Source: Lachnospiraceae bacterium YSB2008
GTDB taxonomy: Bacteria > Bacillota > Clostridia > Lachnospirales > Lachnospiraceae
DNA: 64,000 nucleotides
Reading direction: 5' to 3'
Assembly: GCA_000687655.1 (NCBI GenBank)
Contig: JHWR01000003.1
Location: 1-64,000, forward strand
Part shown: in pieces, positions 3,507 to 29,503 of the stretch
Layout: each line of letters opens with the position of its first letter
Numbering within the stretch: position 1 is the first letter of the stretch
Made by a program: the position numbers and the translations under genes
Notes under the pieces: generated by a model
Database searches by the model: none
What the model saw: only the letters and a program-made list of their open reading frames with translations
Told to the model about the DNA's origin: nothing

Positions 3507-4013
3507 CTACATAATAAATAAATAGTATGAATTCTGCGAATCTTTAGCCAGAAATATCATTGTATCATTTTTTGACTTAGTATCTCCGTTAATGTTACTT
3601 TTGAAGTAAACCTTTTCAACTGACATTTCTCTTAACTCATTACAAATATCATTCCTAAACTGTGGCATCGAAACCGTTGATGGTTCAACTCCCTCTCCAC
3701 AGATTTTAGTTATTTCACTAATAAAGTCTTCTTTTTTACTGTTGTCTAACGATAACTTTATGAAATGCCACTTGTTATTTTGAATCACACCCTCTGCATC
3801 AGTCAAATAATCTCGAATTGTGATTCCCATAACATTTTCTACATACTCTATAACTTCTTCGTAATTCATTTTTGTATCATCCCCATCTTCATCTTCTTTA
3901 AAAACAGTAGTGTTTGTGTCTACATCAACCGATTGCTCCTTTGCACAAGAGGAGAATACTACTCCTGCAATTATAAACAATAATACTATTCTTGCAATTA
4001 TTTGTTTGGACAT
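3507..4013 (-). CDS. Lipoprotein, candidate immunity protein for the RHS effector
   Basis: The start is ATG 4013, which has GGAGG at correct spacing; a TTG 12 bases upstream has none. The 168-residue protein opens with a basic n-region and hydrophobic stretch (IIARIVLLFIIAGVVFSSC) ending in a lipobox-like FSSC. It should be anchored outside the membrane. The rest is acidic, with no domain I recognise. The gene overlaps the 3' end of the RHS gene by 16 bases, so the two are translationally coupled. A small protein directly after a polymorphic toxin is the usual place for its immunity protein. An externally anchored immunity protein would fit protection against a toxin delivered from sister cells. 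Function is inferred from position only. Confidence 0.6.
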   Translation of the reverse strand: MSKQIIARIVLLFIIAGVVFSSCAKEQSVDVDTNTTVFKEDEDGDDTKMNYEEVIEYVENVMGITIRDYLTDAEGVIQNNKWHFIKLSLDNSKKEDFISEITKICGEGVEPSTVSMPQFRNDICNELREMSVEKVYFKSNINGDTKSKNDTMIFLAKDSQNSYYLFIM

Positions 4014-7000
4014 CTTTTCCTCCAATTATTAAGACGATCTACCATATTTTCAAGAGTCATAGATATCGTGCCAACACTTGTTACAGTTGTATGACCATCT
4101 CTTTGCTGATATATATGCCAGCCTTCTGGATCAGTTCTATCATTCCCATAATAATTAGACCACCAATTAAAATCATGTTCATACTGTCTTCCATCTCTCG
4201 ATATGTACGAACCGTCGCCTTGTCTCATAGAAACAAATCCGTCACTGGCTATTACCGGAGCACCCTCTACTTTCCTACTGAAATTAGCTGCTGGATTCTC
4301 AATCGGATTATCAATATGACCTGAATTACATCCGTACAAAACAAGTTGATCCATTTTCTTGTTTTCCAGCCTAGCAATATCTTCTGCAGTAAATCTATCA
4401 TTACTACTATTATATGCTAATGACTGAGGGTCTGCGTGAGTGTTAATAACAACTGTATCTATATCTACAGTATGCCCATCTACAGTTCCCATGCTATTCC
4501 ACCCATCAGTAAGCTCCTGATTATTGCTAACAGGAACCAAATGTACTTCATCAATACTACAATTATATTGTTTAGCTAAGACTTCTCTATCTGCTTTTGC
4601 CTCATCCTCCCATTCAGGAAGATAAAAATAGTAACAATCATTTCCGGAAGGATCCATATATATCATCGGATTATTATAACAATATGTATATAGATTTATA
4701 CTACTTGAAACTGTTTTATGAATAAACCTTTCATCGTCCTTCTGTAAAAACCTTCCCAATTCAGGTGCATACTCTCTTGCATTAGTATGTAAGCTTTTTT
4801 GCCTATTATCAATTAAGAGCCCTATAAACCCAAATGGCTGAATAGCACTTTCGCCTGATAGATTATTTCCAAATTCATCATAATAATTGCTTTCTTTTAG
4901 ATCTCCATTATTTGATAAATAATTGATAACACTTCCATGACCATTGCAATGGTAATAACTATTACCCTCTTTGTATATTTCAGCAGTTAATGCACCATCG
5001 TATACGTAGTCTTTTAAGCCAAATTCTTTTTCGATACCCATTAAGCCATTATACTCTTTTATTGGATTATAGATATATTTTGTCAAACCAGTTTCTGTTT
5101 GTTTTTCCTTACGTAATCCCAATCCGTCATATATATATTTGATCGAATCGCCATCTTCAAAAGACACCTCCGCAAGCTTTCCATCCGAACCATATCGATA
5201 GTGTTGCTCACCTTCTTTGCCTGTTCTAGAAATCATTCTACCATCGTTGTCGTAATTCCAAACAACTCTTTCATTTGTTTCTGTGCCTTTAATATCCTGA
5301 AGTATCAGCTGATTAAGCTTATTATACTCATATTCAATATTAAGACCGTCCATTTCACAGGATACTCTGTTTCCAAATGGATCATAACCATACTTTCTTA
5401 CATATTTACCATTTTCTTTTACCCCTGTTATCCTTCCATCAGAATCATAATCATATACTACGTTTATCATTTCTTGCTTTCTTGGATATTCCATTGAGTA
5501 TCCAGCAACATTTCCAACCTTGTCGTAGGAAACTTCCTCGCTTGATATTATGCCAAGATTATCATAATAAGTAGTTTTTTCAAGTTTATTATCATTTCTA
5601 TATTCATATGTAATTCTACTATTATTCCCTATTCTTTTATCTAATAATCTTCCGCGAGAATCATAAGTATAGTCTATGTTTATATCCGCGCCGTCTATAG
5701 ATGAAAGCTGTCCTTTGTCATTATAATGATAAGCAACTCTATTACCATCAGGATATATAATTGATTTATTTCGTCCAAAACTATCCCATTCATATTTAAG
5801 CTCTTTACCTGCGTAATCTTTGAATGAAATCATTTTCCCACTATCATCATACTGAATAAATGAACGACCATTCCAGTCTTCATATTGAATCATCTGATTG
5901 TAATCATCATAAGAAAAATGAACAGTCCTTCCATCTCCATAAATGATATTTGATACAAGATTATAGGTCTCATATTCATATTGTTTCTTATCTCCATTAG
6001 CGTCAACATGGAGGACTAATCTTCCAGACTTGTCATACGCATATTCATTTGTATTCCCATTTGCATCAATTAATCTTGATATATCACCTCTTAGATTTCG
6101 TATAATCTCTGTTTTACGTTCCTCCATGCCTGATGCTGACTGTACTATCCCAATAATATTATCCATGGAATCATACTTATAACTGGTTATAAGATTGGAT
6201 GGAGAAACAACTCTTTCCAACATTCCTTTTTTATCATAAGAATATTCCGTTCTGTTCCCATTCCCATCAATTCTGGCATTAACCTTATTGAGCGCTCCAT
6301 ACTCATAACCCACCATCCTGCCGTTAGAATCATACATTTTGGTGATTCGATTTAATTTATCATATTCATACTTTATCGAATAGTCTTCTTCCTTCTTCTC
6401 AATAATATTACCTGCTGCATCATAGAAGAATTGTAGCGATTTACCAGATGGATATTCCACCTTTTCTAGCTTTCCGTTTGGATAATATGAGTATTTAGTC
6501 TCCCTACCATCGCCTTCAGTGATGTTTTCAAGTCTTCTTCTATTATCATATTTAAAATGACGTTCATTTCCATTTTTATCTACACGAAGAACGCACTGAC
6601 CTGCCTTATCATATTCATACTTACACTCTTTTCCATTAGAATAAGTAAGCATTATAATATTTCCTGTGTCATCTCTATCTACTTTCTTTATTACGCCATT
6701 TTCTATTACTTCTGATACTCTTCCACAAATATCATAGGTGTATTCATAAGAGGAAATACCATTTTCTTTATAGATAACATTTCCCAAATCATTATATTTT
6801 ATTATAGTCTTTCTTCCTTCAGGATCGACACTTTGAATTAATCTATTAAACCCATCATATTGGTTTTCTACCTTACCTCCATTTGGAAGTGCTATCTCGG
6901 TAATATTGTACATACTATCGTACTTATACTCTGTGGAATTACCCGCCTTATCTATATGTTTTTTAACTAAACCACACTCATTGTATTGCCAGCTTTCCAC

Positions 7001-8794
7001 ACCACCATCGAAATCTACAGCCCTCACTCTATTACCAAGTTTATCATACTGAATCTGTCTCACATATCCGGCAGGATTCTGAATCTCTATAACTCTATCC
7101 TTCAAATCATATTTGTAAATTGTTGTATTATTATTTGGATCTGACTCTTCTATCATACGACCCGCTTCATCATATTTGTAAGTCCAACTATTACCACATT
7201 CATCAGTTTTCTTTTTTAATCTTCCGTATTCATTATATTCATATTCTTCTGTACTTCCATCTGGATTAGTTACTTTAGTCACCTTTCTATTCTCATACTC
7301 AAAATATGTTACATTACCCAATTCATCCGTGTAACTAATCATATCTCCATCTTCATTATAGTTTTTAAATATTACTTCCCCATTTTTCCCTTTTATAGAG
7401 ACTGGAAGGTTATCCATATCATATGTGAGTTCTATCCTCTTCCCAAGAGGGTCAATATATGCCGTCAAATTACCACGATCATCATATTCTCTTCTATATT
7501 CAGCACCCACTTCATTTCTAAATAGAATTCTTCTTCTATTATCATTATATTCGTATGATTCTATACCTTTTTCCGTAATAATCTCGGTAGACAGTTTTTT
7601 TTCATTATGCCTATATACAGTCTTTAAGCCATTTCGTTCAATTACCTCTACTTCATTATCTTTATATGTATAGACTAAGGAAGCACCATCTGCCATAGTC
7701 TGTTTAGTTACTCTATCTAAAGAATCATATTCATTTATTATTGTAGTATAACCCAGTGCATTTATTGTTTTTATTAATCTTCCTTCTGAATCATACTCAT
7801 AATTTACTTCTGCTCCATCAACTCCAACTACTTTTGTAAGCAGCATACCATTATAATAAAACTCTACTTTCCTTCCAAAATTATCTTCAACTCTATTTAC
7901 ATGATCTACTTCATCATAATTAAGAGTGATACTACGACCAGTATTATCAAAAGCCTTTTTCAATCTATCATTTTCGTAAGTAAAGTCTAGTTTTCCACCA
8001 TTAGAAGCTACAATTGAAAATAGTTTTTTATGAGAATCAAAGAAATATGTTTCACCATCAGTAATATGACATACATATCCTTCTCCCTTAACAATATAAT
8101 CTAATGTGCCGGCATGGCTATAAAATATCTCATCATCTCCCTTGACAAATCTTTCTCTCCATTTATCGCCCAAACACAAATCTAAAGTATCTCCATCTCC
8201 CTCTAAAGATACTTCATAAGTATGTGACCATCCTATGCCAAGAATACCGTTTGTCCTAAACATAGCGTTGTAATGTCTTTCGAAGCCAAGGTTAAGAAGT
8301 CCCGAAAACATTATATCTGTTACTGATTCAACATAATTCCCTGTAACAGTATTGACCGGGTCACCGGCATAATCGCTATTTCCATCACCAGAACCTCCCG
8401 GTAATATCCCTACCTCTTGGAGCCATCCTATCACCTTACTAATAAGATTTCCTAAAATTGCCAATAAAGAACCCCATAGTCCACTCTCTTCTGCTTTTTC
8501 AATTCCATTAATCCCCTGGAGTTCTCTATAAGCCTTTTTCTCTGCCTCTTCATAAATGCTTACAATATCCGAAAGCGCACTTGATAATGTCTTTAAGTTA
8601 ATCGACTCTCCTGAAAGACGATCTTTTATACTATTCATCCTATTCTGCAATGCCGCATTAAAAGCACCTGATCTTGAGAAAGTCGAAATAATACGATTAG
8701 CTTCAGACACTAAATCTTCTACAGTCCCTGAACAATTTGATAAACTTCTAATATCTCTTTTTACCTGATTGATATCTAATTCCGTTTTGCTCAT
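3998..8794 (-). CDS. RHS/YD-repeat T7SS effector with C-terminal His/Cys protease-like toxin domain
   Basis: A 1598-residue protein. Residues 1-130 are helical, without a signal peptide, and resemble WXG100/LXG-type targeting domains. From about 160 to 1330 there are dozens of YD/RHS repeats (GxxxxYxYDxxGRL-type) that build a hollow shell. The RHS core closes with REYAPELGRF...NLYTYCYNNPMIYMDPSG at about 1330-1386. The last 212 residues differ from the core: VVINTHADP (His about 1453) and LVLYGCNSG (Cys about 1489) form a His...Cys pair with the spacing and context of clan CD (caspase/gingipain/CHAT-like) peptidases. It lies directly after five WXG100 genes and a helper, and overlaps the candidate immunity gene. 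RHS and effector roles are well supported; the peptidase activity is inference. Confidence 0.85.
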   Translation of the reverse strand: MSKTELDINQVKRDIRSLSNCSGTVEDLVSEANRIISTFSRSGAFNAALQNRMNSIKDRLSGESINLKTLSSALSDIVSIYEEAEKKAYRELQGINGIEKAEESGLWGSLLAILGNLISKVIGWLQEVGILPGGSGDGNSDYAGDPVNTVTGNYVESVTDIMFSGLLNLGFERHYNAMFRTNGILGIGWSHTYEVSLEGDGDTLDLCLGDKWRERFVKGDDEIFYSHAGTLDYIVKGEGYVCHITDGETYFFDSHKKLFSIVASNGGKLDFTYENDRLKKAFDNTGRSITLNYDEVDHVNRVEDNFGRKVEFYYNGMLLTKVVGVDGAEVNYEYDSEGRLIKTINALGYTTIINEYDSLDRVTKQTMADGASLVYTYKDNEVEVIERNGLKTVYRHNEKKLSTEIITEKGIESYEYNDNRRRILFRNEVGAEYRREYDDRGNLTAYIDPLGKRIELTYDMDNLPVSIKGKNGEVIFKNYNEDGDMISYTDELGNVTYFEYENRKVTKVTNPDGSTEEYEYNEYGRLKKKTDECGNSWTYKYDEAGRMIEESDPNNNTTIYKYDLKDRVIEIQNPAGYVRQIQYDKLGNRVRAVDFDGGVESWQYNECGLVKKHIDKAGNSTEYKYDSMYNITEIALPNGGKVENQYDGFNRLIQSVDPEGRKTIIKYNDLGNVIYKENGISSYEYTYDICGRVSEVIENGVIKKVDRDDTGNIIMLTYSNGKECKYEYDKAGQCVLRVDKNGNERHFKYDNRRRLENITEGDGRETKYSYYPNGKLEKVEYPSGKSLQFFYDAAGNIIEKKEEDYSIKYEYDKLNRITKMYDSNGRMVGYEYGALNKVNARIDGNGNRTEYSYDKKGMLERVVSPSNLITSYKYDSMDNIIGIVQSASGMEERKTEIIRNLRGDISRLIDANGNTNEYAYDKSGRLVLHVDANGDKKQYEYETYNLVSNIIYGDGRTVHFSYDDYNQMIQYEDWNGRSFIQYDDSGKMISFKDYAGKELKYEWDSFGRNKSIIYPDGNRVAYHYNDKGQLSSIDGADINIDYTYDSRGRLLDKRIGNNSRITYEYRNDNKLEKTTYYDNLGIISSEEVSYDKVGNVAGYSMEYPRKQEMINVVYDYDSDGRITGVKENGKYVRKYGYDPFGNRVSCEMDGLNIEYEYNKLNQLILQDIKGTETNERVVWNYDNDGRMISRTGKEGEQHYRYGSDGKLAEVSFEDGDSIKYIYDGLGLRKEKQTETGLTKYIYNPIKEYNGLMGIEKEFGLKDYVYDGALTAEIYKEGNSYYHCNGHGSVINYLSNNGDLKESNYYDEFGNNLSGESAIQPFGFIGLLIDNRQKSLHTNAREYAPELGRFLQKDDERFIHKTVSSSINLYTYCYNNPMIYMDPSGNDCYYFYLPEWEDEAKADREVLAKQYNCSIDEVHLVPVSNNQELTDGWNSMGTVDGHTVDIDTVVINTHADPQSLAYNSSNDRFTAEDIARLENKKMDQLVLYGCNSGHIDNPIENPAANFSRKVEGAPVIASDGFVSMRQGDGSYISRDGRQYEHDFNWWSNYYGNDRTDPEGWHIYQQRDGHTTVTSVGTISMTLENMVDRLNNWRKRCPNK

Positions 8795-8824: not shown

Positions 8825-9256
8825 TTAGTTTCCCCCATGTAACCACTCAACTAACCAGTCTTCAAAATCATAATTACTGTTTCCTACATATATTGAACTG
8901 TCGCTCACTATATGATAATTGTTATTTATATTTAAACCCGAACGCCCACTAGCAGGATCTACCTCACTATAATCACCGGATGGTAAATCCTCCACCAATC
9001 GAAGGTTCAACTCCTCAACTTCCGTAAATGCATTCAGTAGTTTTTCTGCCTTATCACTATGCTTTAAAATTTGTTCCTCAGCACGATATAGCTCTTCTTT
9101 TATTTCACATATCCGATTAAAAAAAATAGAGTTATCTCCAAGTTTTAGCAGGATATTGTTTAACTCACTACTAAAATCTATTAGTTTATCATATTCGACG
9201 GCATACTTACTCTTTAGTAATGCCATTTCGTCTGTATCAAAATAGAAACTATTCAT
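8825..9256 (-). CDS. Small helical T7SS effector partner
   Basis: The start is ATG 9256 with AAGGA seven bases upstream. An earlier GTG at 9298 is poorly placed. The 143-residue product is mostly helical and acidic (FDTDEMALLKSKYAVEYDKL...AEEQILKHSDKAEKLLNAF) with a polar, Ser/Asn-rich tail ending DFEDWLVEWLHGGN. No family is recognised with confidence. It sits between the last WXG100 gene and the RHS effector, 30 bases upstream of the latter. Small helical proteins in this position (Lap/WXG100-like) usually bind the N-terminus of an LXG-type effector and target it for export. That role is inferred. Confidence 0.6.
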   Translation of the reverse strand: MNSFYFDTDEMALLKSKYAVEYDKLIDFSSELNNILLKLGDNSIFFNRICEIKEELYRAEEQILKHSDKAEKLLNAFTEVEELNLRLVEDLPSGDYSEVDPASGRSGLNINNNYHIVSDSSIYVGNSNYDFEDWLVEWLHGGN

Positions 9257-9333
9257 CTGATAATCCTTTTTATCAACGTAAGTAATGAATAGGGGCACAG
9301 AAATCCGTACCCCTTATTCACCATAGATTAGCC

Positions 9334-9651
9334 TTAATTAAAAATATTCTCGGTAGATAATTCTTCAACCATTGCTTTCTGTCTGCTCTCTGCATCGTCA
9401 TATTTTGATGCTACTTCATTAAGATTAGCCACATGTTTAGCAAGAAGATCAAGGGAAGCTTCAATAGATGCAACAAGTGATGTAAACTTTGAATAATACT
9501 CCTGTCCGGATGGACTGTTCCATGCATCCTGGAGCTGATTGATTTTAGCCTGCATATCTGAAAGATATGTACTCATAAACGTCCTCTGACTATCTATTTC
9601 TGATGCCTTTGTTCTAACCTCTTCTGGTGTAACCTTAAGTATAAGTGCCAT
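9334..9651 (-). CDS. WXG100-family protein 5 of 5
   Basis: A 105-residue two-helix protein. The turn is WNSPSG, so the classical W-x-G is W-N-S here. A YxxxE-type export signal (YDDAE) follows the second helix. The C-terminus ends LSTENIFN, echoing LSTDNIF in the protein at 10348. WXG100 proteins form four-helix-bundle dimers and leave the cell through the EssC motor, alone or as carriers of effectors. It is the last WXG100 gene before the effector pair. Confidence 0.88.
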   Translation of the reverse strand: MALILKVTPEEVRTKASEIDSQRTFMSTYLSDMQAKINQLQDAWNSPSGQEYYSKFTSLVASIEASLDLLAKHVANLNEVASKYDDAESRQKAMVEELSTENIFN

Positions 9652-9690: not shown

Positions 9691-9981
9691 CTATCTCTGT
9701 ACTATAGTTGTTGCTTCTTCTTCTGCAGCTATATAATTACTTGCTGCTGTCTTGATAGCCGTTGCATATTCAGACATTACTGTAGAAAGCTGATTAAACT
9801 TTGTCCTGTCCTCACCAAAACGTGCATTAAATGCATTATTTGCATCACCATCCCACATTACATCCATTTCTGCTGATAATTCATAAATCTTATTAACAGC
9901 CTGACCCCACTCATCAATTTTCTCTTCTACTCCATTTGCTAAAGTAATCATTGTTTCCGGTGTTACTAATGTTTGTGCCAT
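9691..9981 (-). CDS. WXG100-family protein 4 of 5
   Basis: A 96-residue protein with the canonical turn motif as WDG (VMWDGDANNAF) and a C-terminal YIAAEEE export-type signal. Two amphipathic helices flank the turn. It follows the WXG100 gene at 10042 after 60 bases and has its own ribosome site (GAGAGG). It is the most EsxA-like of the five by length and motif. Expected role: secreted dimer or core substrate of the T7SS. Confidence 0.92.
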   Translation of the reverse strand: MAQTLVTPETMITLANGVEEKIDEWGQAVNKIYELSAEMDVMWDGDANNAFNARFGEDRTKFNQLSTVMSEYATAIKTAASNYIAAEEEATTIVQR

Positions 9982-10041: not shown

Positions 10042-10332
10042 CTAGTTGTTTACTTTTTGTGTCAATTCTTTTTCCAGTCTCTTCATCTCTGTTGTATAGT
10101 TCTTTATAGATGTATAAAGCGAATCAAGCTGATCTGCAATCTTCCTTAACCGTACAGATGTATCTTCTACTTCCGCCGCATAATTTGTAGATGACTTCCC
10201 TTGCCAAGCCACTCCAACATTATCAGCTATACCTGTTACAGCAGTAGCACTTTCTCTTACTCTTCCAGCAAGGCTTTGCGTTTTTATCGCAGCACTTTCC
10301 AACAAGTCAAAATCTATATCTATCATCATCAT
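10042..10332 (-). CDS. WXG100-family protein 3 of 5
   Basis: A 96-residue protein with a canonical WQG turn (VAWQGKSSTNY) and a Y-x-x-E-M segment (YTTEMKRLEKEL) near the C-terminus. It is predicted to be a helix-turn-helix hairpin without a signal peptide. The start lies in a run of three ATGs just after a ribosome site, so the exact first residue is uncertain by one or two codons. It is the middle gene of the five-gene WXG100 run. Confidence 0.9.
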   Translation of the reverse strand: MMMIDIDFDLLESAAIKTQSLAGRVRESATAVTGIADNVGVAWQGKSSTNYAAEVEDTSVRLRKIADQLDSLYTSIKNYTTEMKRLEKELTQKVNN

Positions 10333-10347
10333 AGCAACTATCTCCTA

Positions 10348-10671
10348 TTAAAAAATATTATCTGTCGACAACGAATCAACAATCCCGGTATTGGATTCTT
10401 CATTTTCACTGTAGATTCCTATAACCTGTGACAATGTAGTTTTAGCAGTATTAACACTCTCTTTCACGTCGTCAATTCTTTTCATAGTTTCTATATTTCT
10501 TGTTTTAAACTCTTCACTAGCATTTCCGACCCAATAAGTATCAGCATAGTCATTTATTCTCTTCAAAGTCTTACTTATACCTGATAAATCCGTACAGATT
10601 GCCAATAACTGAGATTCTTTTGATCTGAGAACTTCAAGATCATACATAAAAGTCTCTGTTACTCCCATCAT
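10348..10671 (-). CDS. WXG100-family protein 2 of 5
   Basis: A 107-residue protein with a WVG turn (DTYWVGNASEEF), a YSENEE export-type signal and the C-terminal motif LSTDNIF. GGAGG is placed five bases before the ATG and sits in the end of the upstream gene, seven bases away. The WVG and Y-E signals support WXG100 membership. The C-terminal tail shared with the protein at 9334 suggests the two may be related partners. Confidence 0.88.
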   Translation of the reverse strand: MMGVTETFMYDLEVLRSKESQLLAICTDLSGISKTLKRINDYADTYWVGNASEEFKTRNIETMKRIDDVKESVNTAKTTLSQVIGIYSENEESNTGIVDSLSTDNIF

Positions 10672-10678: not shown

Positions 10679-10996
10679 TTATCTCAATATCTGTGTACTT
10701 AACAGATTTACACGATTTTGAACTTCCGTCTCACCATTACTATAATACTGTGAAACTTTTCTTAACTTATCTATTGTTTCTGTTAATCTGTCTATAACAA
10801 ACTTAATATCTCTAGCATCTACATCTACAGTACTTGTATAACCTGTTCCTGCTATACTCTGCCAGGACCCTTCAATCTCCTGCTTAAACTTCTCTATATT
10901 CTTAGAATCTGTTTCAAGCTTTTCCTTCTCATTGCTTAGCTTTGTAATCATTCTTGACAACTCAGCTACATCCCACCGATATACTCCGGATCTCAT
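10679..10996 (-). CDS. WXG100-family protein 1 of 5 (first gene of operon)
   Basis: A 105-residue helical protein with a divergent turn (GSWQSIAGTGY, W-x-S instead of W-x-G) and a C-terminal YYSNGETEV followed by LLSTQILR. AAGGAG precedes the start. It opens the downstream T7SS transcription unit. The shared 21-bp direct-repeat operator ends 67 bases upstream, and a -10-like TAGTAT lies at 11030-11035. Membership is inferred from size, helix-turn-helix layout and position among clearer WXG100 genes. Confidence 0.85.
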   Translation of the reverse strand: MRSGVYRWDVAELSRMITKLSNEKEKLETDSKNIEKFKQEIEGSWQSIAGTGYTSTVDVDARDIKFVIDRLTETIDKLRKVSQYYSNGETEVQNRVNLLSTQILR

Positions 10997-11029
10997 TTAA
11001 CCATCTCCTTCCTGTCTCTCACTGTGTTC

Positions 11030-11101
11030 ATACTACAACATATTAATTTAATTATTTTCCAAACTGATAAAATGCATTATTTTTTCTATAAAATGCATTT
11101 T
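11030..11101 (-). promoter_or_regulatory. Promoter and 21-bp direct-repeat operator A of the T7SS WXG100/effector operon
   Basis: AAAATGCATT occurs twice with exactly 21 bases from one TGC to the next (11074 and 11095), starting at ACTGATAAAATGCATT (11063). Downstream on the minus strand are a weak -35 and TAGTAT at 11030-11035 as -10, then the first WXG100 ATG at 10996. The same block, with the same 21-base period and a start-codon distance differing by one base, lies upstream of the 29503 operon. On the minus strand the promoter-proximal copy runs into ATCAGTTTGG, a match to the 9-base LytTR site consensus. Binding by the LytTR protein at 11777 is inferred. Confidence 0.7.
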
Positions 11102-11364: not shown

Positions 11365-11399
11365 ATCAGTTTCCTCACCGATCAGGTTTTCTTTTCATC

Positions 11400-19030: not shown

Positions 19031-19068
19031 TAAAGCGGAGTCCCATATCTCTATGTAACTCCGCTTTA
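19031..19068 (-). other. Intercistronic hairpin
   Basis: TAAAGCGGAGT and ACTCCGCTTTA make an 11-bp perfect stem around a 16-base loop in the gap between the Ig-like gene and the kinase gene. It is not followed by a T-run on the minus strand, so processing, stability control or partial attenuation is likelier than full termination. Confidence 0.55.
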
Positions 19069-19078
19069 AGTTTAAAAA

Positions 19079-22000: not shown

Positions 22001-24319
22001 ATAATCAGTTCCCTTTGTTAATCTTATACCTTCACTACCCTCTAATGTTATACTTTCGGCTAATCCTTCGTCTCCATGAACTATAAAAGAAATAGTATCT
22101 CCCGAGTTTACATAGTACTCTGTATTTTCTCCATTTCCCACTTTCTTAACATTATCATCCGGGTCTGCATCATCTACATTTAAAGCGACGATTTTACCAA
22201 CCTTTATTCTTTCATCTTTCGTATTGCCTACTTTATCAACCAAATGACAAATAATGTAAGCATTTTCATCAAAAATTGGTCCTCCCAATGATATATTTCC
22301 TTTGCCATCACTTAACGGACCTGTTGTTGAGGTTTTCTTATCTTTCACATACAAAATATATTCTGATTTCTCATCTACTCCTGCATAATCATCTATCAAA
22401 TTATAGTTGATTGTTTTTTTCAGAGATGATTTTTCTGCAAATTTATCAGGCGTAGATTCGAAATCACCAACTACGTATGATATCTCGCTAAACTCTGGAG
22501 GAGTAGTATCTAATATTATAGTTATACTTCCTTTTCCATATTCTGCATTTCCAAGTGACCTTACCTCTAAAACATTTGCGCCTTTCTCCTCAACTTTTCC
22601 TATTACAAAATGATCGTTTGGAATATCCTTCCAACTATCGTCAGAAGCCCACTTATATTGAGTGTACTCTGTATTTTCAAAAGAAAATTTAACTTCTGAA
22701 GGATGGTTTATTACATACTTTGATCCTTCTATTGAACAATATTTAAAGTCATTATAATTATCATCAGGTATAAAACTGTCTTGATCTATTTTTTTCAGTA
22801 CTTCACTAATATCATTGACTTTTACTATAACTACTTTAGAAGCTAATTTATATTCACCAATACTATATGCTACAGTAAATGACTGTCCATTAGTGAAATC
22901 ATCCTCGCTAGTTAATATAAACTTTCCACCAGTCACCTCATATTTTTCGTAATCATAGCTTCCTCGTGTAACTCGAAGTGAAGGAGAAACATATGAAGGT
23001 AACGATTTTATATTATAGTCATATTTTACGCATGGATATATTTGTCCTGCACCAGTACCTTCACCAAGGAAACCTTCTAACACTTTTGTTCCGTCAATTA
23101 TTCCCACTTTAATCTCGATATCACTATTAAGATTTCCTAATATATATTTTGACGTACCATCATCCTCATTAAATGATGCTTTGCTAGAATCTGTTACTGG
23201 TGAATCATTAATCTCAGAGATTAACTGGTCTTTTTCTGAAATAAGTGCCACTTTTCCATACGAAGTAACATCTTTCTTTAAAATAAAGTACTCACCATCT
23301 TCTCCGGCTAAAACTTGACCAGCCTCAGAGCATAAATCTACTTTGTCACTATCACCTGATATTACAACATGATAATAATTTTTATTATTCACTGTATAAC
23401 TTTCACTAGTTAAAACATCAGCACTTGCGCTATCTGATACTAGTTCAACAGTTAAAATGTCACCAATATCTAATGGAACGCTATTCAGTGTATAAGAAGC
23501 AGTTGGGGCAGCAAACCTTGCCACTTCACTATCATTTTTTTTAATAACAAAATTTCCACTTAAATCATTTAATGATCCATTATTATTAGTTGCAGAGCTT
23601 GCAATTGTAATTGTTGGGTTCGAATTAGTATCAGTTCCCCATGTTGCTACAAAGTCACCAGCTTTCCATGACAACGTAATCTGATTATCATGTCCATTAA
23701 TCTCTGTATCACCGTCAAAATACTTTACGGTTATTACTCTTCCTACTTTTCCAGTATCATCATAACTAAGTTCAGCAGATGTACTTTCGTCAGCAAATGA
23801 CACTTCACCTATTTTATCTGAACCTTTATATGCTATTGCTTTAGTTGCGTAGTCTTTTAAATAAACACTATTACCCGAAGTACTAATTGTTATTTTTTTA
23901 CTATCACTGTTGCAGTTTGTCGTAATATCCCATTCCGGAAGATCGAAATTCTTGGAATCACTAACCCAACTGAGACCATTCTCAAGTACCTCTGGTTCTC
24001 CGCCTTCTTCTGCCGACGCTTTATACAAAGTAAATGTAAATGTAACACCTTCACGTATCCTGTCAGGAATTGAAAACGAAGAAATATTTCCTTCTGTGTT
24101 ATATACAGTCTTTCCATTATAATCCACTTTTGCGCTAACTACTGCAGATGTATTAACGCTGTCAGGATATACAACATTTAGATTAGAGCCACTCCAAGAT
24201 GCTGTAACACTGTCTGCTGCTTTAGAGCGTATCGAGCTAAGACTCTGTGGCAGTACCAAAAGAACAACCAGCATGATAGCCAGTATTCTTCTGTAAAACC
24301 TTTTGTTTACATTCTTCAT
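19079..24319 (-). CDS. Giant Ig-like-domain surface protein with C-terminal membrane anchor
   Basis: A 1746-residue protein with an N-terminal signal peptide (basic MKNVNKRFYRR, hydrophobic LAIMLVVLLVLPQSL, Ala-rich exit). A long acidic Ser/Thr/Asp-rich exterior follows, and a single TM (WWIFVIIGALAVGGIIFFVV) with a basic RRKEEQ tail. The exterior holds many Ig-like repeats, each opening with D-x-T-x-P (DNTKPTITY, DTKDPVLTV, DKTAPKLTL, DLTDPEITI, DRTAPEYIV) and most closing with tDxAGNxs. The position between kinase genes and essC, and one membrane pass, suggest it is the extracellular part of the machine, perhaps replacing the long EsaA exterior. That role is inferred; adhesion is the alternative. 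Confidence 0.85.
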   Translation of the reverse strand: MKNVNKRFYRRILAIMLVVLLVLPQSLSSIRSKAADSVTASWSGSNLNVVYPDSVNTSAVVSAKVDYNGKTVYNTEGNISSFSIPDRIREGVTFTFTLYKASAEEGGEPEVLENGLSWVSDSKNFDLPEWDITTNCNSDSKKITISTSGNSVYLKDYATKAIAYKGSDKIGEVSFADESTSAELSYDDTGKVGRVITVKYFDGDTEINGHDNQITLSWKAGDFVATWGTDTNSNPTITIASSATNNNGSLNDLSGNFVIKKNDSEVARFAAPTASYTLNSVPLDIGDILTVELVSDSASADVLTSESYTVNNKNYYHVVISGDSDKVDLCSEAGQVLAGEDGEYFILKKDVTSYGKVALISEKDQLISEINDSPVTDSSKASFNEDDGTSKYILGNLNSDIEIKVGIIDGTKVLEGFLGEGTGAGQIYPCVKYDYNIKSLPSYVSPSLRVTRGSYDYEKYEVTGGKFILTSEDDFTNGQSFTVAYSIGEYKLASKVVIVKVNDISEVLKKIDQDSFIPDDNYNDFKYCSIEGSKYVINHPSEVKFSFENTEYTQYKWASDDSWKDIPNDHFVIGKVEEKGANVLEVRSLGNAEYGKGSITIILDTTPPEFSEISYVVGDFESTPDKFAEKSSLKKTINYNLIDDYAGVDEKSEYILYVKDKKTSTTGPLSDGKGNISLGGPIFDENAYIICHLVDKVGNTKDERIKVGKIVALNVDDADPDDNVKKVGNGENTEYYVNSGDTISFIVHGDEGLAESITLEGSEGIRLTKGTDYTVEVLEETDNSGAAQYKVTYTNVTNATKDGEYVIKCHAEDEEAGLNTDSKEFTFIIDNTKPTITYNDLLDKNFINSTDVPEGKGLVSINDINDTNLKTIDATVKYIGESGEEKEDVAKNIKNDLETVDEGIFNKTDYVLDKEGTYTISLTVTDKAGNQSEPFKKSFTFDNTKPSTNGIRIEKTTPKGQETKNYNNYQVFDSRVKVTIETKDVISGLKPFDSDASKSGIVVTADEVDKYGESSNIKYENTEKSDKYASVFVFYVNPNYRGKIAIKLTDYAGNVLQKELAKDSENGWVGAISDSLAADITVSTPNAKKIFNNVAYYNASDVARVKIVAIDNISGLNKIRLTNVAADSVNDIPNIGTKFDVSYPSGNITTDEQTINKDFTTDGAYQIKVVATDNAGNEIEDTSSKFIVDTKDPVLTVSYSSSEEFNNTSVSSDIKIDELNLDGASSKITIYRNEAVYKTVSNLEAANKVSFDEDGDYYIVVDAVDKAGNSSTYNGKQEGKIFTVDKTAPKLTLTYNNNNVQNGKYYNAERTGTLTVVEHNFEAQGITITVNGSQVSAGFSNNGGDSYSANIPFNEENDYTLTITGVDKAGNHEEASISDEFTVDLTDPEITIANVEEDALYSGTVNPSIEVTDRYYDNTGTKITLATSRNSSTGKGIEGSYTASTIANGERFVYSNFKNDEANDDYYLLKVVATDLSGRSSEKTIGFMVNRFGSYFTLDDYTAALVDKKYTNLEGDDDIVIAAHNLAKIDESTVYFTVGEDTEVLKENEGYKVDTKAGDDHWNVSTYRFEKSLFESEGEYNIVVSTKDSEGNVADNESKEVPVTFVIDRTAPEYIVNGIENEQNYEDQDKVSGAIELHDNIGVAKAVVDIDGTKSTYEGKELDEMNNSIPVEFGKGSHTVKIKVYDLAGNESKDDDGITFSVAQNAAERAIEGAVKNFWWIFVIIGALAVGGIIFFVVAKRRKEEQ

Positions 24320-24391
24320 AATCTCTCTCCTCCGTTCACTTATTCGGGCTATGCCCGGATGAGCGTAAAAATAATAGTTTTCTCTTTATCT

Positions 24392-24952
24392 TTAGATGAT
24401 ATCTTCATCTGTATGTACCAGCATTATCTCCCTTGAAAGATGAAATCTGAAATCCTGTGGAGATACTCTTTGGTATATCTCGCTTCCGGAAAGAAGTGAA
24501 GTCTCCTGTTCGGATATATCGTTCGAAAGAACGGTTGTTCCGATTGATTCCTCCGGAGAATTGCTGAGAAGTGTCGTCTCGCTTCTTGGATCTGCATAAG
24601 CAGCTGTTCTGTCTATCTGTGTGACAGGAACACTTCCTTCTCTAATATTCAGCTTACCGGAAGCTGAGTACATTTCCTGCCTCTGTTTTCTTCTTGGAGG
24701 TTCACTAACCTTCGATGATTTCTTGAGATTAGTAAGCTGGCTTGTGTATGCTGCATTATCGTCAAGCTGTTTAATCTCTTTCTTCCTTGATATTCCTGTT
24801 ATTTTCATAAACACATTCGGAATATTCAGGATGAAGAATAACGCTATAGCTACAAGTAGAAAACATATAGCAGCAATCAGACATATAAGGAATACTGTGT
24901 GATAAGTCTGAAGGTTCTTTTCAACCTCAATGGCTGTTATTGCAAGCATCAT
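24392..24952 (-). CDS. Single-TM protein with repeated kinase/FHA-type Thr motifs
   Basis: A 186-residue protein. One TM (VFLICLIAAICFLLVAIALFFIL) lies near residues 20-42 and a polar cytoplasmic tail follows. The tail contains ETTLLS, GTTVLS and ETSLLS within about 40 residues. ETTLLS recurs in the juxta-FHA region of the protease-FHA protein at 27569. Clustered T-T-[LV]-L-S sites beside kinases, a phosphatase and FHA domains look like phospho-acceptor or FHA-docking sites. The gene overlaps the end of the kinase gene at 24949 by four bases. No family is recognised; EssA-like size and one TM are noted but homology is not claimed. A short GGGC-ATA-GCCC hairpin lies in the 72-base gap below it (24345-24357). 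Confidence 0.65.
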   Translation of the reverse strand: MMLAITAIEVEKNLQTYHTVFLICLIAAICFLLVAIALFFILNIPNVFMKITGISRKKEIKQLDDNAAYTSQLTNLKKSSKVSEPPRRKQRQEMYSASGKLNIREGSVPVTQIDRTAAYADPRSETTLLSNSPEESIGTTVLSNDISEQETSLLSGSEIYQRVSPQDFRFHLSREIMLVHTDEDII

Positions 24953-26733
24953 TCTGGTTCACCTCCTGACCCATCATCTGTATCTGTCTCCGGAAGATTC
25001 TGAACCCCACCATTCTTATTTGAGACTGCGTCTATCTTGCTTCTCGTAATAGGAATCTGGTTTTTAACGCTGTTATAAATTGCTTCATAACTCTTATCCG
25101 TAGCTACAAACTTCGATGTATTATTAATCTGGCTTTCGATATTGTTAACCATCTGATACAGCTTATCCGTACTTACAACTCCATAAAATCCATTCATGTT
25201 GTTGTTGTCGGAAATGATTCCAAGAATTTTTTGGTAAGCATAAAGCTGAGCCGCCTTCGTGCTGAATGTATCACTGTCAGATGCTTTACTGTATATCGTC
25301 TCTATATTATTCCAGAACTGCGCATAATCCACATTGTTGTCAAATTTGTTCGAAGTTCCGGAGCTGTATTCGGTCAAACTTAGGAGTAATTGAGCTGTCT
25401 GGTAGTCTTTATTATTTGTTATCTCACCATCCTGATATTCCTTAACTCTTTCAAGCCAAGGCTTAGCGGTGTTACCACCATTTTCTACTCCTGTCCATAT
25501 ATCAAGTCCGAATCTGTAACAGAACTGGTAATAATCATATAGATTACTGCCTTCCAGATCATCAAGCCTTGTTCCGTCTGTATTGTTACTAGGCTTTGTT
25601 ACCATATTGTTTACCTTTCCGTATTCGGCAAAGGAAAGCGATCCCTGTTCAGACTCATTTTCATAAAAATCATTTGTATATTTGTCGAGAATCAGATTAT
25701 AAGCCTCTGCTTTTGTTGCATCGAGATCAAGTGCATGTTCTATATTCTCAACAAATTCCTCCTCTGAGGCTGCTGCCTCAGCAAGTTTATAGTATGTCTC
25801 ATAGTTTTGAGACGCATATTTCGTTTCTTTATGGTGTGTTATTCCCGCAGCAGCGAAAAGCGCGACTGAAAGTCCAAGTGTCGATGCAAATGAAACGAAT
25901 TTTCGTTTGTTTTTCTTTATTTCACCTTCATCCAGATCCTTGTAATGCTCAAGTGCATACATGAGTTCACTACAGGATTGGTATCTCGCCGCCGGATTTC
26001 TCTGTGTACATTTAATAATTATCTGCTCAAGTCCGGAAGAAAGATGTGGATTCCACTGTCTTATCGGATACATCTCATATGGCGGCTTTGCCGGGTTGTG
26101 CCCTGTAACAAGATGGTAGATTGTAGCTCCCAGATTATATATATCCGTCCTGGCATCAGTCTGACCATGTCCACCAAACTGCTCAGGAGCTGCATATCCT
26201 TGAGTACCAAGACAGGTTGTATCCTCAATCATCGACTTATTCTTATATTCTCTGGCGGTACCAAAATCGATAAGCGTTACGTCCCCGTTGGATTTAAGCA
26301 TAACGTTTGAAGGCTTCATATCTCTGTATATGATAGGAGGCTTTCTGCTGTGCAGATATCCAAGCACATCACATAGCTGCTTCGCCCACTGAATTACATA
26401 TTCCTGAGGCTGCGCACCATTCTCTTTAATAACACTACTGAGAGATTTACCCTCTATATAGTCCATTACTATAAGAAATGTATCATCTGTATCGATTACA
26501 TCTACGATGCTCGGCAGGTTCGGATGATTCAGTCTTTTAAGCATATCAGTCTCAACTATGAGTCCCTGCTTTACGACCTCGTAATTCTTTGTTCCATCCT
26601 TACGGACCTCTTTTATGGCCCAAGGTTTGTTAGCCGCTTCGTTAATGGCAAGGTAAACGACACTCATTCCACCTTTGCCGATCTGATTCAGTATTTTGTA
26701 TTTTCCATCTATAACTGAGCCTATCTCCAGCAT
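24949..26733 (-). CDS. Membrane Ser/Thr protein kinase (PknB-like)
   Basis: A 594-residue protein with a complete Hanks-type kinase domain at about residues 12-270: GKGGMSVVY glycine loop, AIKEV Lys, YRDMKPSN catalytic loop, LIDFGTA metal loop, and CLGTQGYAAPEQ activation/P+1 segment. A basic KKNKRKF stretch and a TM (FASTLGLSVALFAAAGI) follow, then an exterior domain of about 280 polar residues without PASTA repeats. All catalytic residues are present, so it should be active and is the likely writer kinase of the locus. It lies 49 bases below the PP2C gene and overlaps the small TM gene. Confidence 0.92.
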   Translation of the reverse strand: MLEIGSVIDGKYKILNQIGKGGMSVVYLAINEAANKPWAIKEVRKDGTKNYEVVKQGLIVETDMLKRLNHPNLPSIVDVIDTDDTFLIVMDYIEGKSLSSVIKENGAQPQEYVIQWAKQLCDVLGYLHSRKPPIIYRDMKPSNVMLKSNGDVTLIDFGTAREYKNKSMIEDTTCLGTQGYAAPEQFGGHGQTDARTDIYNLGATIYHLVTGHNPAKPPYEMYPIRQWNPHLSSGLEQIIIKCTQRNPAARYQSCSELMYALEHYKDLDEGEIKKNKRKFVSFASTLGLSVALFAAAGITHHKETKYASQNYETYYKLAEAAASEEEFVENIEHALDLDATKAEAYNLILDKYTNDFYENESEQGSLSFAEYGKVNNMVTKPSNNTDGTRLDDLEGSNLYDYYQFCYRFGLDIWTGVENGGNTAKPWLERVKEYQDGEITNNKDYQTAQLLLSLTEYSSGTSNKFDNNVDYAQFWNNIETIYSKASDSDTFSTKAAQLYAYQKILGIISDNNNMNGFYGVVSTDKLYQMVNNIESQINNTSKFVATDKSYEAIYNSVKNQIPITRSKIDAVSNKNGGVQNLPETDTDDGSGGEPE

Positions 26734-26751
26734 AGTCTCTTCCTTCCGTAT

Positions 26752-26778
26752 CCCGATGAATTGTTATCAGTCATCGGG
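26752..26778 (-). other. Intercistronic hairpin between PP2C and kinase genes
   Basis: CCCGATGA and TCATCGGG form a perfect 8-bp stem with an 11-base loop in the 49-base gap. There is no T-run, so a role in transcript processing or stability is more likely than termination. Confidence 0.5.
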
Positions 26779-26782
26779 GCAC

Positions 26783-27553
26783 TTAACAAGTCTTTATTAA
26801 TCCAACTGTAATGTTGTCTAATTCGTTACGATATTTGTTTAAATCAACGAGATATTTAGAATACTCTGTCATTGCATTTTCATTTACAAGAAGATTTGGA
26901 TTCAGATATTGTAAGAATTCCGCTTCTGTAATAAGATGAACAAATCCATCGCAACAAAGTAAAAATATCTCATTCCCGGTAACAAGCCCAGAAAAATAAT
27001 CAGGGTATATATCTTCAGATGCACCAACGCACTGTAAGAGAACGCTCCTTTGATTACTCACAAGAGCCTCCTCTTTAGTCATTCTTCCTGCATCTATCTC
27101 TCTTTGAATGTACGTATGATCCTTTGTAATCTGCCTGATCTCATTTGGCAGAATATGGTAGATTCTTGAATCCCCCACATTTACTATGTAGTATTTGCCT
27201 TTATATATAAGGATTCCCGAAAGTGTTGTTCCGAGTCTTATACCATTTTTTCTACCATAATTCTGGATAAGATCATTTTGTGTATTAATAATCTGATTCC
27301 AGTCACGCCTAAGGCCTGCTTCACTGAAGCCTTCTGCGACAAGATTCACGAAACGATTGTCAAACCATTCTTTGAATCCTTTTATAAGCGTGGATGAGGC
27401 GAGTTCGCCCTTGGCGAACCCACCCATTCCATCACATACAACTCCAAATGCAATTTTGCCAAATGCAGAATCTGCAGTTTCAAGTAAGAGAGAATCCTGA
27501 TTAGTTTTCTTTCTAAGTCCTACGTCTGTATAAGACGAAAGCATAAAGTCCAT
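26783..27553 (-). CDS. PP2C-family Ser/Thr protein phosphatase
   Basis: A 256-residue protein with the PP2C metal-binding motifs in order: TDVGLRKKTNQD near the N-terminus, VVCDGMGGF at about residue 40, LGTTLSGILI, VNVGDSRIY, ITKDHTY, and LLCCDGF near 200. It is cytoplasmic, with no TM. PP2C enzymes remove phosphate from Ser/Thr and usually partner with a PknB-type kinase in the same operon, as here. It is the second gene of the upstream unit, 15 bases after the protease-FHA gene, and is the likely eraser for EssC/FHA-directed phosphorylation. Confidence 0.93.
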   Translation of the reverse strand: MDFMLSSYTDVGLRKKTNQDSLLLETADSAFGKIAFGVVCDGMGGFAKGELASSTLIKGFKEWFDNRFVNLVAEGFSEAGLRRDWNQIINTQNDLIQNYGRKNGIRLGTTLSGILIYKGKYYIVNVGDSRIYHILPNEIRQITKDHTYIQREIDAGRMTKEEALVSNQRSVLLQCVGASEDIYPDYFSGLVTGNEIFLLCCDGFVHLITEAEFLQYLNPNLLVNENAMTEYSKYLVDLNKYRNELDNITVGLIKTC

Positions 27554-27568
27554 TCAGGTTATTCCTCC

Positions 27569-29503
27569 CTAGCCAAGCTTAAACTGGAACTCCTCGTCAG
27601 AAAACTTAATTCTGTCGTTATTGTTAAGCATCACCTTCTGTGATGCCGGTAAAGCTTCGCCATTCAGATATGTATAGTTAGTTGAGTTATTATCTTTAAT
27701 GAAGTAATTACCATCTTCAAATGTAATGATTGCATGTACTCGGCTTACTGAATTATTGGTTATGCAATAATCAACTTTACTTCTCTCTTTACCAATCTTG
27801 AATTCACGTTTACCGATTGTGATCTTCTCACCTGTCTTAGTCTTAACAAGTACTGCCATAATCTGGTTTGTCTCGCTAAGAAGAGTTGTCTCGCCTGATC
27901 CTTCGTTAAGAAGTACTGTCTCACCAGCTCCTTCTCCCATCTGTGGAATAGTAGGTGGTGCTGGATAAGCGTTCTGCTGTGGAGCACGTCTTGCCGGTTC
28001 TACCGGTGGTGCTACAGGAGGCTGTGGTGCTACAGGTTCCGGTGCATATCCAAGAGCAGGTCTAGGAGGAGTCATTGCTGCAAGGCCACCACCCATTCCA
28101 CCATATGGTGGCAATGTCTGCTCTTCCTTAGCCTTCTTCTTTGATTTTGAAACAAGAACAATTATAAGAACGATTATAAGTATCACTACTGCTGCGATGA
28201 TAGCAATGATTACTATAAGCATTGTATTTGACTTTTCTACAAGATTACTTCTCGCATCCTTTAAGTCAGTCAGTGCCTTATCAACTTCCTCCTGTGTTGC
28301 ATCTGCTTTATCATTAACAGATTTTGCTGTTTCAAGCGCAAGTTCAAAATCTGCAAATGAATCAGCATCATAATCTGCTGCCACTTCTCCTTCTGCTGAA
28401 GAAATCTCTGCGGCAAGTCCGGTCTTATCAACAGTTACCTTCTCCTCGAGATTGCCTATAGCAGTTTCAAGTCCTTCTCTGGCTGATTTATAATCATCAT
28501 CAGTTGCTGCATCGTTGTTAAGAGCAGTGTTAGCTATTCTAAGTGCATCCTGAAGTGCTGCAAAACTCTCTTCTGTGTAATCACTTGCTGCATATGAATT
28601 AGCATTAGAAACAAGATTTCTGAGAAGAACTTCTTCAGTTTCACCAGCCGGATTGTCCGGTTCTGTTGTCGACTCCGTAGTTGTTGATGGTGCTCCTTCG
28701 GAAGCATCAATAAATTCAACATTAAGTACCTTTAGTACGTCCGCTACTTCATTAATATTAAGTGCGTAATAATATGTATTGGAATTATCCTCTGTAAAGC
28801 CCTTAACAACACCTACAACATTTCCGTTTGCATCGATAAGTGGTCCACCGGAATTACCTTCAGCTGTTACTGCTGAATGCTGTATAAAATCATATCCGTT
28901 AAGAGAAACCTTTTTTGAAATTGAACCCTTTGTTATAGTTACATCCTCTGATGTAAATACAGAAAAGTCTTCAAGGTATGTAACGATTCCCGGGAATCCA
29001 AGTGCAAATACATCTGAAGTCTCTTCTATGTTCTGTGTTTTAAGAGGAAGTGTCTTTCTTTCTGATATAGGCTGGTCAAGTTTAAGAATTGCAAAGTCCA
29101 TATCATCGGGAGCACTTTCATTTAAAATTGAAGCTCCTACATAAACAGTACCTTTAACTATAACTCTTATGCTTGTATCAAGCTGACTGGTCTGAGCAAT
29201 TCCAAATGCATCCTTAACCCATGCTACATACTCATCCTCAAGTCTGACTACGTGATCACACGTGATCATGATGTCACCTGTTGTTGCTTCTGTTCCAATA
29301 AGGAATCCTGTTCCTGACTGAAGTACATATGCATTTCCTGTGGCAGGATCTGTATATACGACTTCTATCTGGAATATCGCATCTCTGGCTGCCTGTGCTG
29401 CCTGGTTTGCTTCTCCCTCTGCACTGGCTGTTATGGAAAAACTCATAACGAGCACAAGTGCAAGAGCAAGAGCAAGCCTCATTTTTTTCAATACTCTCTT
29501 CAT
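27569..29503 (-). CDS. Trypsin-like serine protease - FIVAR x2 - TM - FHA protein
   Basis: The start is ATG 29503, which follows GGAGGG and begins a signal peptide (MKRVLKKMRLALALALVLVM). The exported S1C-like protease domain shows ITCDHVV (His), DDMDFAILKLD (Asp) and AEGNSGGPL (Ser). Two FIVAR-type helical repeats follow (LEEKV- and LVEK-ending). A TM (IVIIAIIAAVVILIIVLIIVLV) leads to a proline-rich linker, a GSGETTLLSE segment and a C-terminal FHA domain (IGKERSKVDYCI, SRVHAII, NNSTNYTYLNG). The architecture joins an outside protease to an inside phospho-reader. It is the first gene of the upstream unit; operator B ends 67 bases ahead of its start. Length is 644 residues. Confidence 0.9.
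   Translation of the reverse strand: MKRVLKKMRLALALALVLVMSFSITASAEGEANQAAQAARDAIFQIEVVYTDPATGNAYVLQSGTGFLIGTEATTGDIMITCDHVVRLEDEYVAWVKDAFGIAQTSQLDTSIRVIVKGTVYVGASILNESAPDDMDFAILKLDQPISERKTLPLKTQNIEETSDVFALGFPGIVTYLEDFSVFTSEDVTITKGSISKKVSLNGYDFIQHSAVTAEGNSGGPLIDANGNVVGVVKGFTEDNSNTYYYALNINEVADVLKVLNVEFIDASEGAPSTTTESTTEPDNPAGETEEVLLRNLVSNANSYAASDYTEESFAALQDALRIANTALNNDAATDDDYKSAREGLETAIGNLEEKVTVDKTGLAAEISSAEGEVAADYDADSFADFELALETAKSVNDKADATQEEVDKALTDLKDARSNLVEKSNTMLIVIIAIIAAVVILIIVLIIVLVSKSKKKAKEEQTLPPYGGMGGGLAAMTPPRPALGYAPEPVAPQPPVAPPVEPARRAPQQNAYPAPPTIPQMGEGAGETVLLNEGSGETTLLSETNQIMAVLVKTKTGEKITIGKREFKIGKERSKVDYCITNNSVSRVHAIITFEDGNYFIKDNNSTNYTYLNGEALPASQKVMLNNNDRIKFSDEEFQFKLG

Follow-up and report, generated by a model that had tools for sequence, protein, structure and literature searches.

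A possibly portable phosphothreonine signaling module joined to an EssB-less type VII secretion system in Lachnospiraceae bacterium YSB2008

The window analyzed here, a 64,000-nucleotide stretch of Lachnospiraceae bacterium YSB2008 (contig JHWR01000003.1, positions 1 to 64,000), encodes a type VII secretion system (T7SS) on its minus strand, which carries every gene named below for the locus. Genes were called from a list of open reading frames (ORFs) and from Pfam and NCBIfam scans of the window proteins. The region consists of two joined units. Unit A (J-F-D-K-I) encodes an FHA protein (J), a PP2C phosphatase (F), a kinase (D), a protein with repeated threonine sites (K) and a giant immunoglobulin-like (Ig-like) protein (I), and unit B runs in the order TPR kinase, EssC, LytTR protein, 126-aa protein, YukD-like protein, five WXG100 proteins, 157-aa protein, RHS effector and lipoprotein. 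With a probability of roughly 0.6, unit A is a portable envelope-signaling module and unit B, which includes an RHS effector, is a T7SS of T7SSe/T7SSj grade that lacks EssB. That J-F-D-K-I acts as a self-contained envelope phosphothreonine switch, plugged into interchangeable machines (Tad pilus or T7SS within the order), is in our judgment an even bet. The class of system is already published; what is new is the comparative result on a possibly portable module.

Module genes in genomes without EssC

We surveyed 393 genomes of the order that are at least 90% complete, counting F matches with an E of at most 1e-30 (the weakest at 107 bits) and EssC matches with an E of at most 1e-60 (L and G numbers below are our handles for loci and genomes). 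F was matched in 76 genomes and EssC in 94; 44 genomes have both, 32 have F only, 50 have EssC only, and 267 have neither. EssC accompanies F in 44/76 genomes and is found in 50/317 genomes without F (odds ratio of 7.3, with kinship ignored), and this association is real. The 32 F-positive genomes without an EssC match are 94 to 100% complete. None of them has a TIGR03928 match over the cut-off (the best, at 127 bits, is an FtsK-like stretch), and a WXG100 match over the cut-off occurs in only one, G288, with a match below the cut-off in G401. The four EssC-positive genomes included in the WXG100 search gave 2 to 5 matches each.

F neighborhoods were inspected in 24 of the 32 F-only genomes (8 were unread; L173 is a 3.9-kb contig), and a module was scored where F lies with D (at least 330 bits to the window D) and a giant protein with a signal peptide and a transmembrane (TM) segment. 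Fifteen neighborhoods hold such a module, 2 are partial, and 7 do not. Fourteen of the 15 lie in genomes without a WXG100 match, one of which, G022, belongs to the window's own genus. In these 14 loci F, D and I are full-length open frames; clustering recovers the giant protein in all 14, while 12 have a relative of K and 10 a relative of J. Because 14 genomes in which neither EssC nor WXG100 was detected have F, D and I side by side, unit A is not T7SS-specific. The earlier note on this DNA had read the genes of both units as one secretion locus; across the order the module is often EssC-linked but also Tad-linked or EssC-free.

The own genome holds a second, divergent set of FHA, PP2C, D, K and giant Ig-like genes on contig 17 (L083, 4708-14495). 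Its J runs to the contig end, and no EssC lies within the stretch read. Separately, contig 7 (L082, 3232-13173) groups two large TM kinases with two PP2C and three FHA proteins, again with no EssC within the stretch read.

Tad pilus genes beside the module

Twenty regions 5' of the module were read, 14 from EssC-free genomes and 6 from genomes with EssC elsewhere. Homologues of TadZ, TadA, TadB and TadC are all present in 10 of them (6 EssC-free, 4 EssC-positive), and in the 6 EssC-free cases the module lies directly behind the Tad genes on the same strand. Nine of the 20 regions have no Tad genes, and the upstream stretch read in G329 contains only TadE/TadG-like, peptidase-like and WG-repeat genes. 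Pfam matches over the cut-off in G299 comprise the TadZ receiver (160 bits), T2SSE (209 bits), TadE (27.9 bits), A24 peptidase (39.8 bits) and DUF5702 (123 bits); its T2SSF matches are below the cut-off (23.3 and 23.0 versus 25.2).

A single TadZ query was run over the 393 genomes, with "near" meaning within 30 kb. Among 90 F genes, 20 are near EssC, 17 near TadZ, none near both, and 53 near neither, a count that contig ends and reliance on one query make too high. TadZ was matched in 33 genomes; F is present in 18 of these and adjacent in 17. Where TadZ scores at least 130 bits, F lies within 30 kb in 15/17 genomes.

TadZ-like ParA-type ATPases are also encoded near EssC in L070, L192, L193, L199 and ten other T7SS loci. 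Of two that were scanned, the L070 protein scores 17.8 bits with the TadZ receiver model (cut-off, 27.4), and the L199 protein is not listed. A TadZ common to Tad and T7SS loci was considered and rejected: the Tad-locus TadZ and the T7SS-locus TadZ-like ATPases form separate clades, and we therefore make no claim of a shared TadZ. Two further observations concern Tad-like genes. In the own genome, contig 7 (L081, 1968-10059) has a Tad-like locus (weak TadZ, TadA, TadB, TadC, TadE/G-like) followed by an FHA-domain protein, and in L092 (2763-9985) a TadA-like gene and pilus-type genes (by eye) lie 5' of a TPR kinase-EssC pair related to that of the window.

These contexts bear on the published view of T7SSe and T7SSj, in which J, F, D, K and I belong to the T7SS core; I would then be an EsaA-like envelope conduit and the EssC-free copies would be relics. 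The description of T7SSe and T7SSj in the parts of Garrett et al. (2024; PMC11217815) available to us agrees with that view, as do the F-EssC association, the operon-like fusion in the window, and the adjacency of module and T7SS in L070, L186, L198-L201 and L206. Relics should decay, yet F, D and I are still full-length in the 14 genomes with no detected EssC or WXG100, and 6 of the 14 modules are those directly behind Tad genes. Binding residues are, moreover, often lost from module-linked EssC FHA domains (see below). We regard the core-T7SS view as rather unlikely.

History of the D kinase

A tree of 52 D kinases was labeled by hand from coordinates. The EssC-linked label requires 8 changes when nine D loci of unclear linkage are omitted; over all 52 rows it requires 12, versus 13.8 in shuffles, and is barely more clustered. 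For the 36 D kinases of known context (16/52 rows, with context unread or unclear, were omitted), a three-state context requires 9 changes versus a shuffled mean of 16.5. T7 versus the rest takes 8 changes, 5 of them forced by starred branches (shuffled mean, 12.0), Tad versus the rest takes 4, with 1 forced (shuffled mean, 9.5), and Tad versus T7 contexts alone takes 3. The contexts are clustered but seem to have been exchanged; the tree gives no direction and is compatible with a single Tad origin. The branch of the window D is long, its position is uncertain, and it does not group with the contig-17 copy.

Candidate phosphothreonine sites and their FHA readers

The window K holds TTLL, TTVL and TSLL, and the repeated T-T-[LV]-L-S sites that the earlier note saw in this TM protein exceed chance. 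The motif T[TS][VLIM]L was counted 65 times over the 8268 residues of 50 K proteins (7.9 per 1000) versus 99 times in 564,497 background residues, an enrichment of ~45-fold. The K tails contain 64 sites, beyond all 500 shuffles (mean of 1.7, maximum of 6). At least one site is present in 26/50 K proteins, or 36/50 by a broader pattern. As a side observation, H-[TS]-x-[ED] is found within the last 20 residues of 23/50 K proteins, the window K ending in VHTDE.

J-type proteins contain 55 sites in 25,110 residues, and at least one site occurs in 35/53 FHA proteins of module loci. EssC (11 in 63,629 residues), TadA (0 in 8,012) and TadZ (1 in 9,993) are at or under background, and D, F and I are near it. 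When ten J proteins are aligned, two E-T-T-V-L sites prove invariant or nearly so; DUF6382 was verified in 4 of these ten, and it is over the cut-off in J of L049, L161, L163 and L187. At least one J or K site was found in 10/11 Tad-linked, 12/15 T7-linked (window excluded) and 5/9 isolated modules. Since the sites are present in Tad-linked and isolated modules too, they are independent of the T7SS.

The FHA domains of J-type proteins keep Ser (or Thr) and Asn in 47/53 cases and Lys/Arg and His in 53/53. An FHA-like stretch could be scored in 60/70 EssC sequences, the alignment of degenerate domains being less certain; Ser and Asn are kept in 6/17 module-linked EssCs and in 22/43 others. Three of the 6 have Arg or Lys. 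(G021 is counted as module-linked, with an I fragment preceding its TPR kinase.) In the window EssC FHA, Ser, His and Asn are present and the Arg position is Ser, and docking on it is possible.

A writer, acceptors, a reader and an eraser thus form a complete predicted set inside the module, and the circuit seems to close there. With its parts inside the module, docking on EssC becomes an optional extra, possible in the window. The earlier note had proposed kinase-controlled FHA docking as the gate of the export channel, with phosphorylated K docking on the EssC FHA and licensing channel assembly. The signaling set that this idea needs is present, K is in the same apparent operon, and the window EssC FHA keeps Ser, His and Asn. 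Its Arg position is nevertheless Ser, 11/17 module-linked EssC FHAs lack the Ser/Asn pair, the J FHA is better conserved, and EssC itself carries sites at the background rate. The task of the module is also not solely EssC gating, because J-F-D-K-I occurs in EssC-free genomes and behind Tad genes. The EssC-docking model is, in our opinion, unlikely.

Absence of EssB, EsaA and EssA

The own genome, rated 100% complete, has a single EssC by TIGR03928, plus an FtsK-like stretch of 105 bits. Consistent with the absence that the earlier note reported, profile searches of this genome gave no EssB, EsaA or EssA match at E 0.001; a weak EssA match of 15.6 bits in protease J spans its membrane helix. 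The EssB and EsaA models were also run on 80 of the 94 EssC-positive genomes, and the EssA model on the own genome only. The EssB model yields full-length matches (194-225 bits; cut-off, 229.75) in 6/80, and the negative in the own genome is therefore informative. EssB lies within 0.5 kb of EssC in 4 of the 6, ~6 kb away in 1, and on a different contig in 1. Two further matches among the 80 genomes are short and weak. A full-length EssB match is absent from 74/80, and EssB absence is ordinary in this group.

The suggestion that kinases and FHA proteins stand in place of EssB gained no support. When four EssB matches from relatives were compared by hhalign with ten J proteins, D and the TPR kinase, the probabilities were 3.7, 0.7 and 0.3% (P of 0.012, 0.084 and 0.2), none of them significant, and a hidden EssB in these proteins was rejected. 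We keep the match to J, which lies within the N-terminal portion of EssB, as a lead only. Against PDB, the D profile matches PrkC/StkP/PknB-type bacterial and other kinases over residues ~4 to 260, and EssB is not among the best 60 of 2818 matches. Of four weak EssB hits, two were inspected by eye and dismissed: the one in L043 resembles a kinase, and the one in L046 an ABC-2 membrane protein. EsaA-model matches occur in 31/80 genomes, all below the cut-off; the one inspected by eye (L220), a large membrane protein, has a TetR-like gene as its neighbor, and we take such matches to be YhgE/Pip-type proteins.

Gene content and organization of the locus

From J to the RHS gene the intergenic gaps are at most 104 bp, and four neighboring gene pairs overlap between J and the last gene. 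The two units, called adjacent in the earlier note, look like one transcript rather than two. As the module shares an apparent operon with the T7SS, it probably controls or accompanies export in the window. That units A and B are unrelated neighbors merely sharing an operon is very unlikely: the module is distant from EssC in many EssC-positive genomes, including G392 and G446, where a full-length match to EssB lies no more than 0.5 kb from EssC, but adjacency recurs, in different orders, in several lineages.

The main components named in the earlier note were recovered, EssC, the WXG100 proteins and the RHS effector in unit B together with two TM kinases, PP2C, two FHA proteins (EssC and the protease) and the giant Ig-like protein (Table 1). 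Three of the five WXG100-type proteins score above the Pfam cut-off of 27.3 and two slightly below it (24.0 and 26.5). YukD fared less well: size, place and weak similarity favor it, but neither the Pfam nor the NCBIfam scan matched YukD in the protein at 11101-11364.

Relatives of several window proteins recur elsewhere. The trypsin-like domain of J is found by Pfam in L172 and L197 and by similarity to the window J in L176-L178, L186, L194 and L198-L200. A TPR kinase also adjoins EssC in L047/L087 and L092, with one ORF between them in L089, and relatives of the LytTR protein lie 3' of EssC in L079/L099, L087, L089-L091 and L097. Spaced His and Cys motifs were seen by eye in the C-terminal region of the RHS effector.

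Promoter-like sites are no more frequent than in shuffles (63 found, 64.9 expected), and the site 5' of J is the sole 11/12 match among those listed for 10900-29900. Terminator-like hairpins number 13 in the stretch versus 8.4 expected.

Table 1. Features of the locus in the window, listed from the 5' side of J
Feature	Positions	Strand	Basis
Terminator-like hairpin, 12 pairs, 5' of locus	29769-29800		Consensus scan only
Promoter-like site TTGACA-18-TACAAT, 11/12 consensus positions, 5' of J	29650-29679	-	Consensus scan only
J: hydrophobic N-terminal segment, trypsin-like domain (His, Asp, Ser motifs), FIVAR, TM, linker with ETTLL, FHA	27569-29539	-	Pfam Trypsin_2, FIVAR, FHA
F: PP2C phosphatase, presumed eraser	26783-27553	-	Pfam, homologue search
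D: PknB-type Ser/Thr kinase, TM at residue ~280, extra C-terminal domain, presumed writer	24949-26733	-	Pfam, profile search
K: N-terminal TM, tail with ETTLLS, GTTVLS and ETSLLS sites, C-terminal VHTDE	24392-24952	-	ORF translation, motif scan
I: giant Ig-like protein, hydrophobic segments at both ends (probable signal peptide and TM anchor)	19079-24319	-	Pfam
TPR kinase: HSD and DFN motifs, TM at residue ~277, TPR region, directly 5' of EssC	17105-19021	-	Pfam TPR matches
EssC/TsxC with N-terminal FHA	12487-17103	-	TIGR03928, 1110 bits (cut-off, 778); FHA, 46.6 bits
LytTR protein, N-terminal ~140 residues without Pfam assignment	11777-12490	-	Pfam
126-aa protein, unassigned fold, between LytTR and YukD-like genes	11400-11780	-	70% identical homologue in L099
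YukD/TsxB-like small protein	11101-11364	-	Size, place, weak similarity to equally placed proteins of relatives
WXG100-type protein	10679-10996	-	Pfam
WXG100-type protein	10348-10671	-	Pfam
WXG100-type protein	10042-10332	-	Pfam
WXG100-type protein	9691-9981	-	Pfam
WXG100-type protein	9334-9651	-	Pfam
157-aa protein between WXG100 and RHS genes, possible effector partner	8825-9298	-	Homologue in L079
RHS effector, C-terminal region without Pfam assignment	3998-8794	-	Pfam
172-aa lipoprotein-like protein overlapping the RHS stop, candidate immunity protein by its place	3507-4025	-	Lipobox by eye

Proposed working and significance

The domains, hydrophobic segments, sites, conservation and gene contexts seen here suggest a mechanism in which the membrane topology and the control of a partner machine are both predicted. 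The giant protein I and the outer domain of kinase D may report a surface or contact state. D would then phosphorylate the threonines of T-T-[VL]-L sites in the K tail and the J linker, and the FHA domain of J, to judge from its kept residues, would bind the phosphorylated sites and gather J at the membrane. Binding may turn on the effector domain of J, a trypsin-like protease in the window and DUF6382 elsewhere, and F would reset the switch. The partner machine presumably varies and may be a Tad pilus, a T7SS, or neither nearby.

Several observations weigh against a portable module. The 53/90 F genes near neither machine and the 15/33 TadZ genomes without an F match leave many cases outside the proposed pairings. 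The contexts do cluster on the D tree (T7, 8 versus 12.0; Tad, 4 versus 9.5), its starred branches force just one Tad change, and trees are blind to gain versus loss; if the module began as part of a T7SS, later loss of EssC could account for orphan copies. "EssC-free" status rests on draft genomes. Of the 14 T7SS-free loci, just 10 have a relative of J and 12 one of K, the narrow site pattern is missing from 24/50 K proteins, and 4/9 isolated modules have no such site in J or K. L212-L215 carry F with a short kinase only. The module is tightly fused to EssC in the window and at other loci (in L198, EssC follows K within 3 bp), evidence that selection often ties it to the T7SS.

If the portable-module reading is true, J-F-D-K-I would be a counterpart, outside the type VI secretion system (T6SS), of the T6SS threonine phosphorylation pathway, and it would offer an explanation, lacking until now, for why Tad and T7SS genes lie together. 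In PMC11217815, kinase, phosphatase, FHA and Ig-like proteins are ranked as T7SS core from EssC neighborhoods; with a portable module, the core of these T7SSs would shrink. The same source reports Tad genes next to T7SSg and T7SSh without settling what they mean; whether such co-location is coincidental would become testable. EssC-free strains would also offer a defined writer, eraser, acceptor and reader for study.

Comparison with known systems

The window encodes an EssC/EccC ATPase and WXG100 proteins and accordingly a T7SS in the general sense. It does not qualify as T7SSb, whose EsaA, EssA and EssB are not matched in the own genome. The closest published architectures are those of PMC11217815, which, in the parts available to us, describes T7SSd, T7SSe and T7SSj with a kinase D, an Ig-like I and an FHA-bearing C, adds phosphatase F, FHA protein J, short TM protein K and ubiquitin-like B in T7SSe and T7SSj, and raises control by threonine phosphorylation as a possibility. 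Because T7SSe and T7SSj are described there with nearly these parts, the window architecture is a variant of the published grade.

By the same account, T7SSe shares with the window EssC-FHA, a YukD-like protein, at least two WXG100 proteins, a TM kinase, a PPM phosphatase, a short TM protein, a giant Ig-like protein with signal peptide and TM segment, and a separate FHA protein, and it likewise lacks EsaA, EssA and EssB. Its part set D, F, I, K, B and two WXG100 is present in the window, B by size and place only. The FHA of EssC in T7SSe is described with a conserved phosphothreonine site, of which the window EssC keeps Ser, His and Asn but has Ser in place of Arg. T7SSe TseJ combines DUF6382 with FHA, whereas the window J has Trypsin_2, FIVAR and FHA and no DUF6382 by Pfam; the window further differs in a second (TPR) kinase, in the LytTR and 126-aa genes, and in having no separate TseH that we recognized. 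T7SSj shares a kinase with a TPR C-terminus, Ig-like protein, phosphatase, FHA protein, YukD-like protein and the lack of TseH, and the window TPR kinase at 17105-19021 fits the TsjD description. TsjJ (DUF6382 and FHA, shared with T7SSe) is not matched by the window J, and the window has an additional D kinase and protease-FHA protein. We file the window system as T7SSe/j-like, with no finer assignment. In the open PMC literature, DUF6382 or T7SSj is mentioned only in PMC11217815, and the module in Tad loci or T7SS-free genomes is undescribed in the titles and abstract starts among the open-literature matches listed.

Two systems outside the T7SS are also comparable. The Kil Tad-like killing apparatus of Myxococcus (PMC8460266) combines a Tad machine with several FHA proteins, and contact signaling has been proposed for it; its host is a diderm, and the main text available to us makes no mention of a kinase or phosphatase. 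FHA proteins also accompany one class of CpaF motors (PMC12019362).

T6SS genes were not found in the locus, where Pfam and an NCBIfam scan of 9 proteins gave only weak matches, to the TagH FHA model (23.4 bits, NCBIfam) and to TssO (12.7 bits, Pfam); a genome-wide T6SS search was not made. The eraser of the T6SS threonine phosphorylation pathway is PppA. As far as PMC3953482 was available to us, this PpkA/Fha pathway shares with the module a kinase, an FHA reader and a phosphorylated membrane protein, and it is the closest working analogy to J-F-D-K-I, as a comparison of how the two would work.

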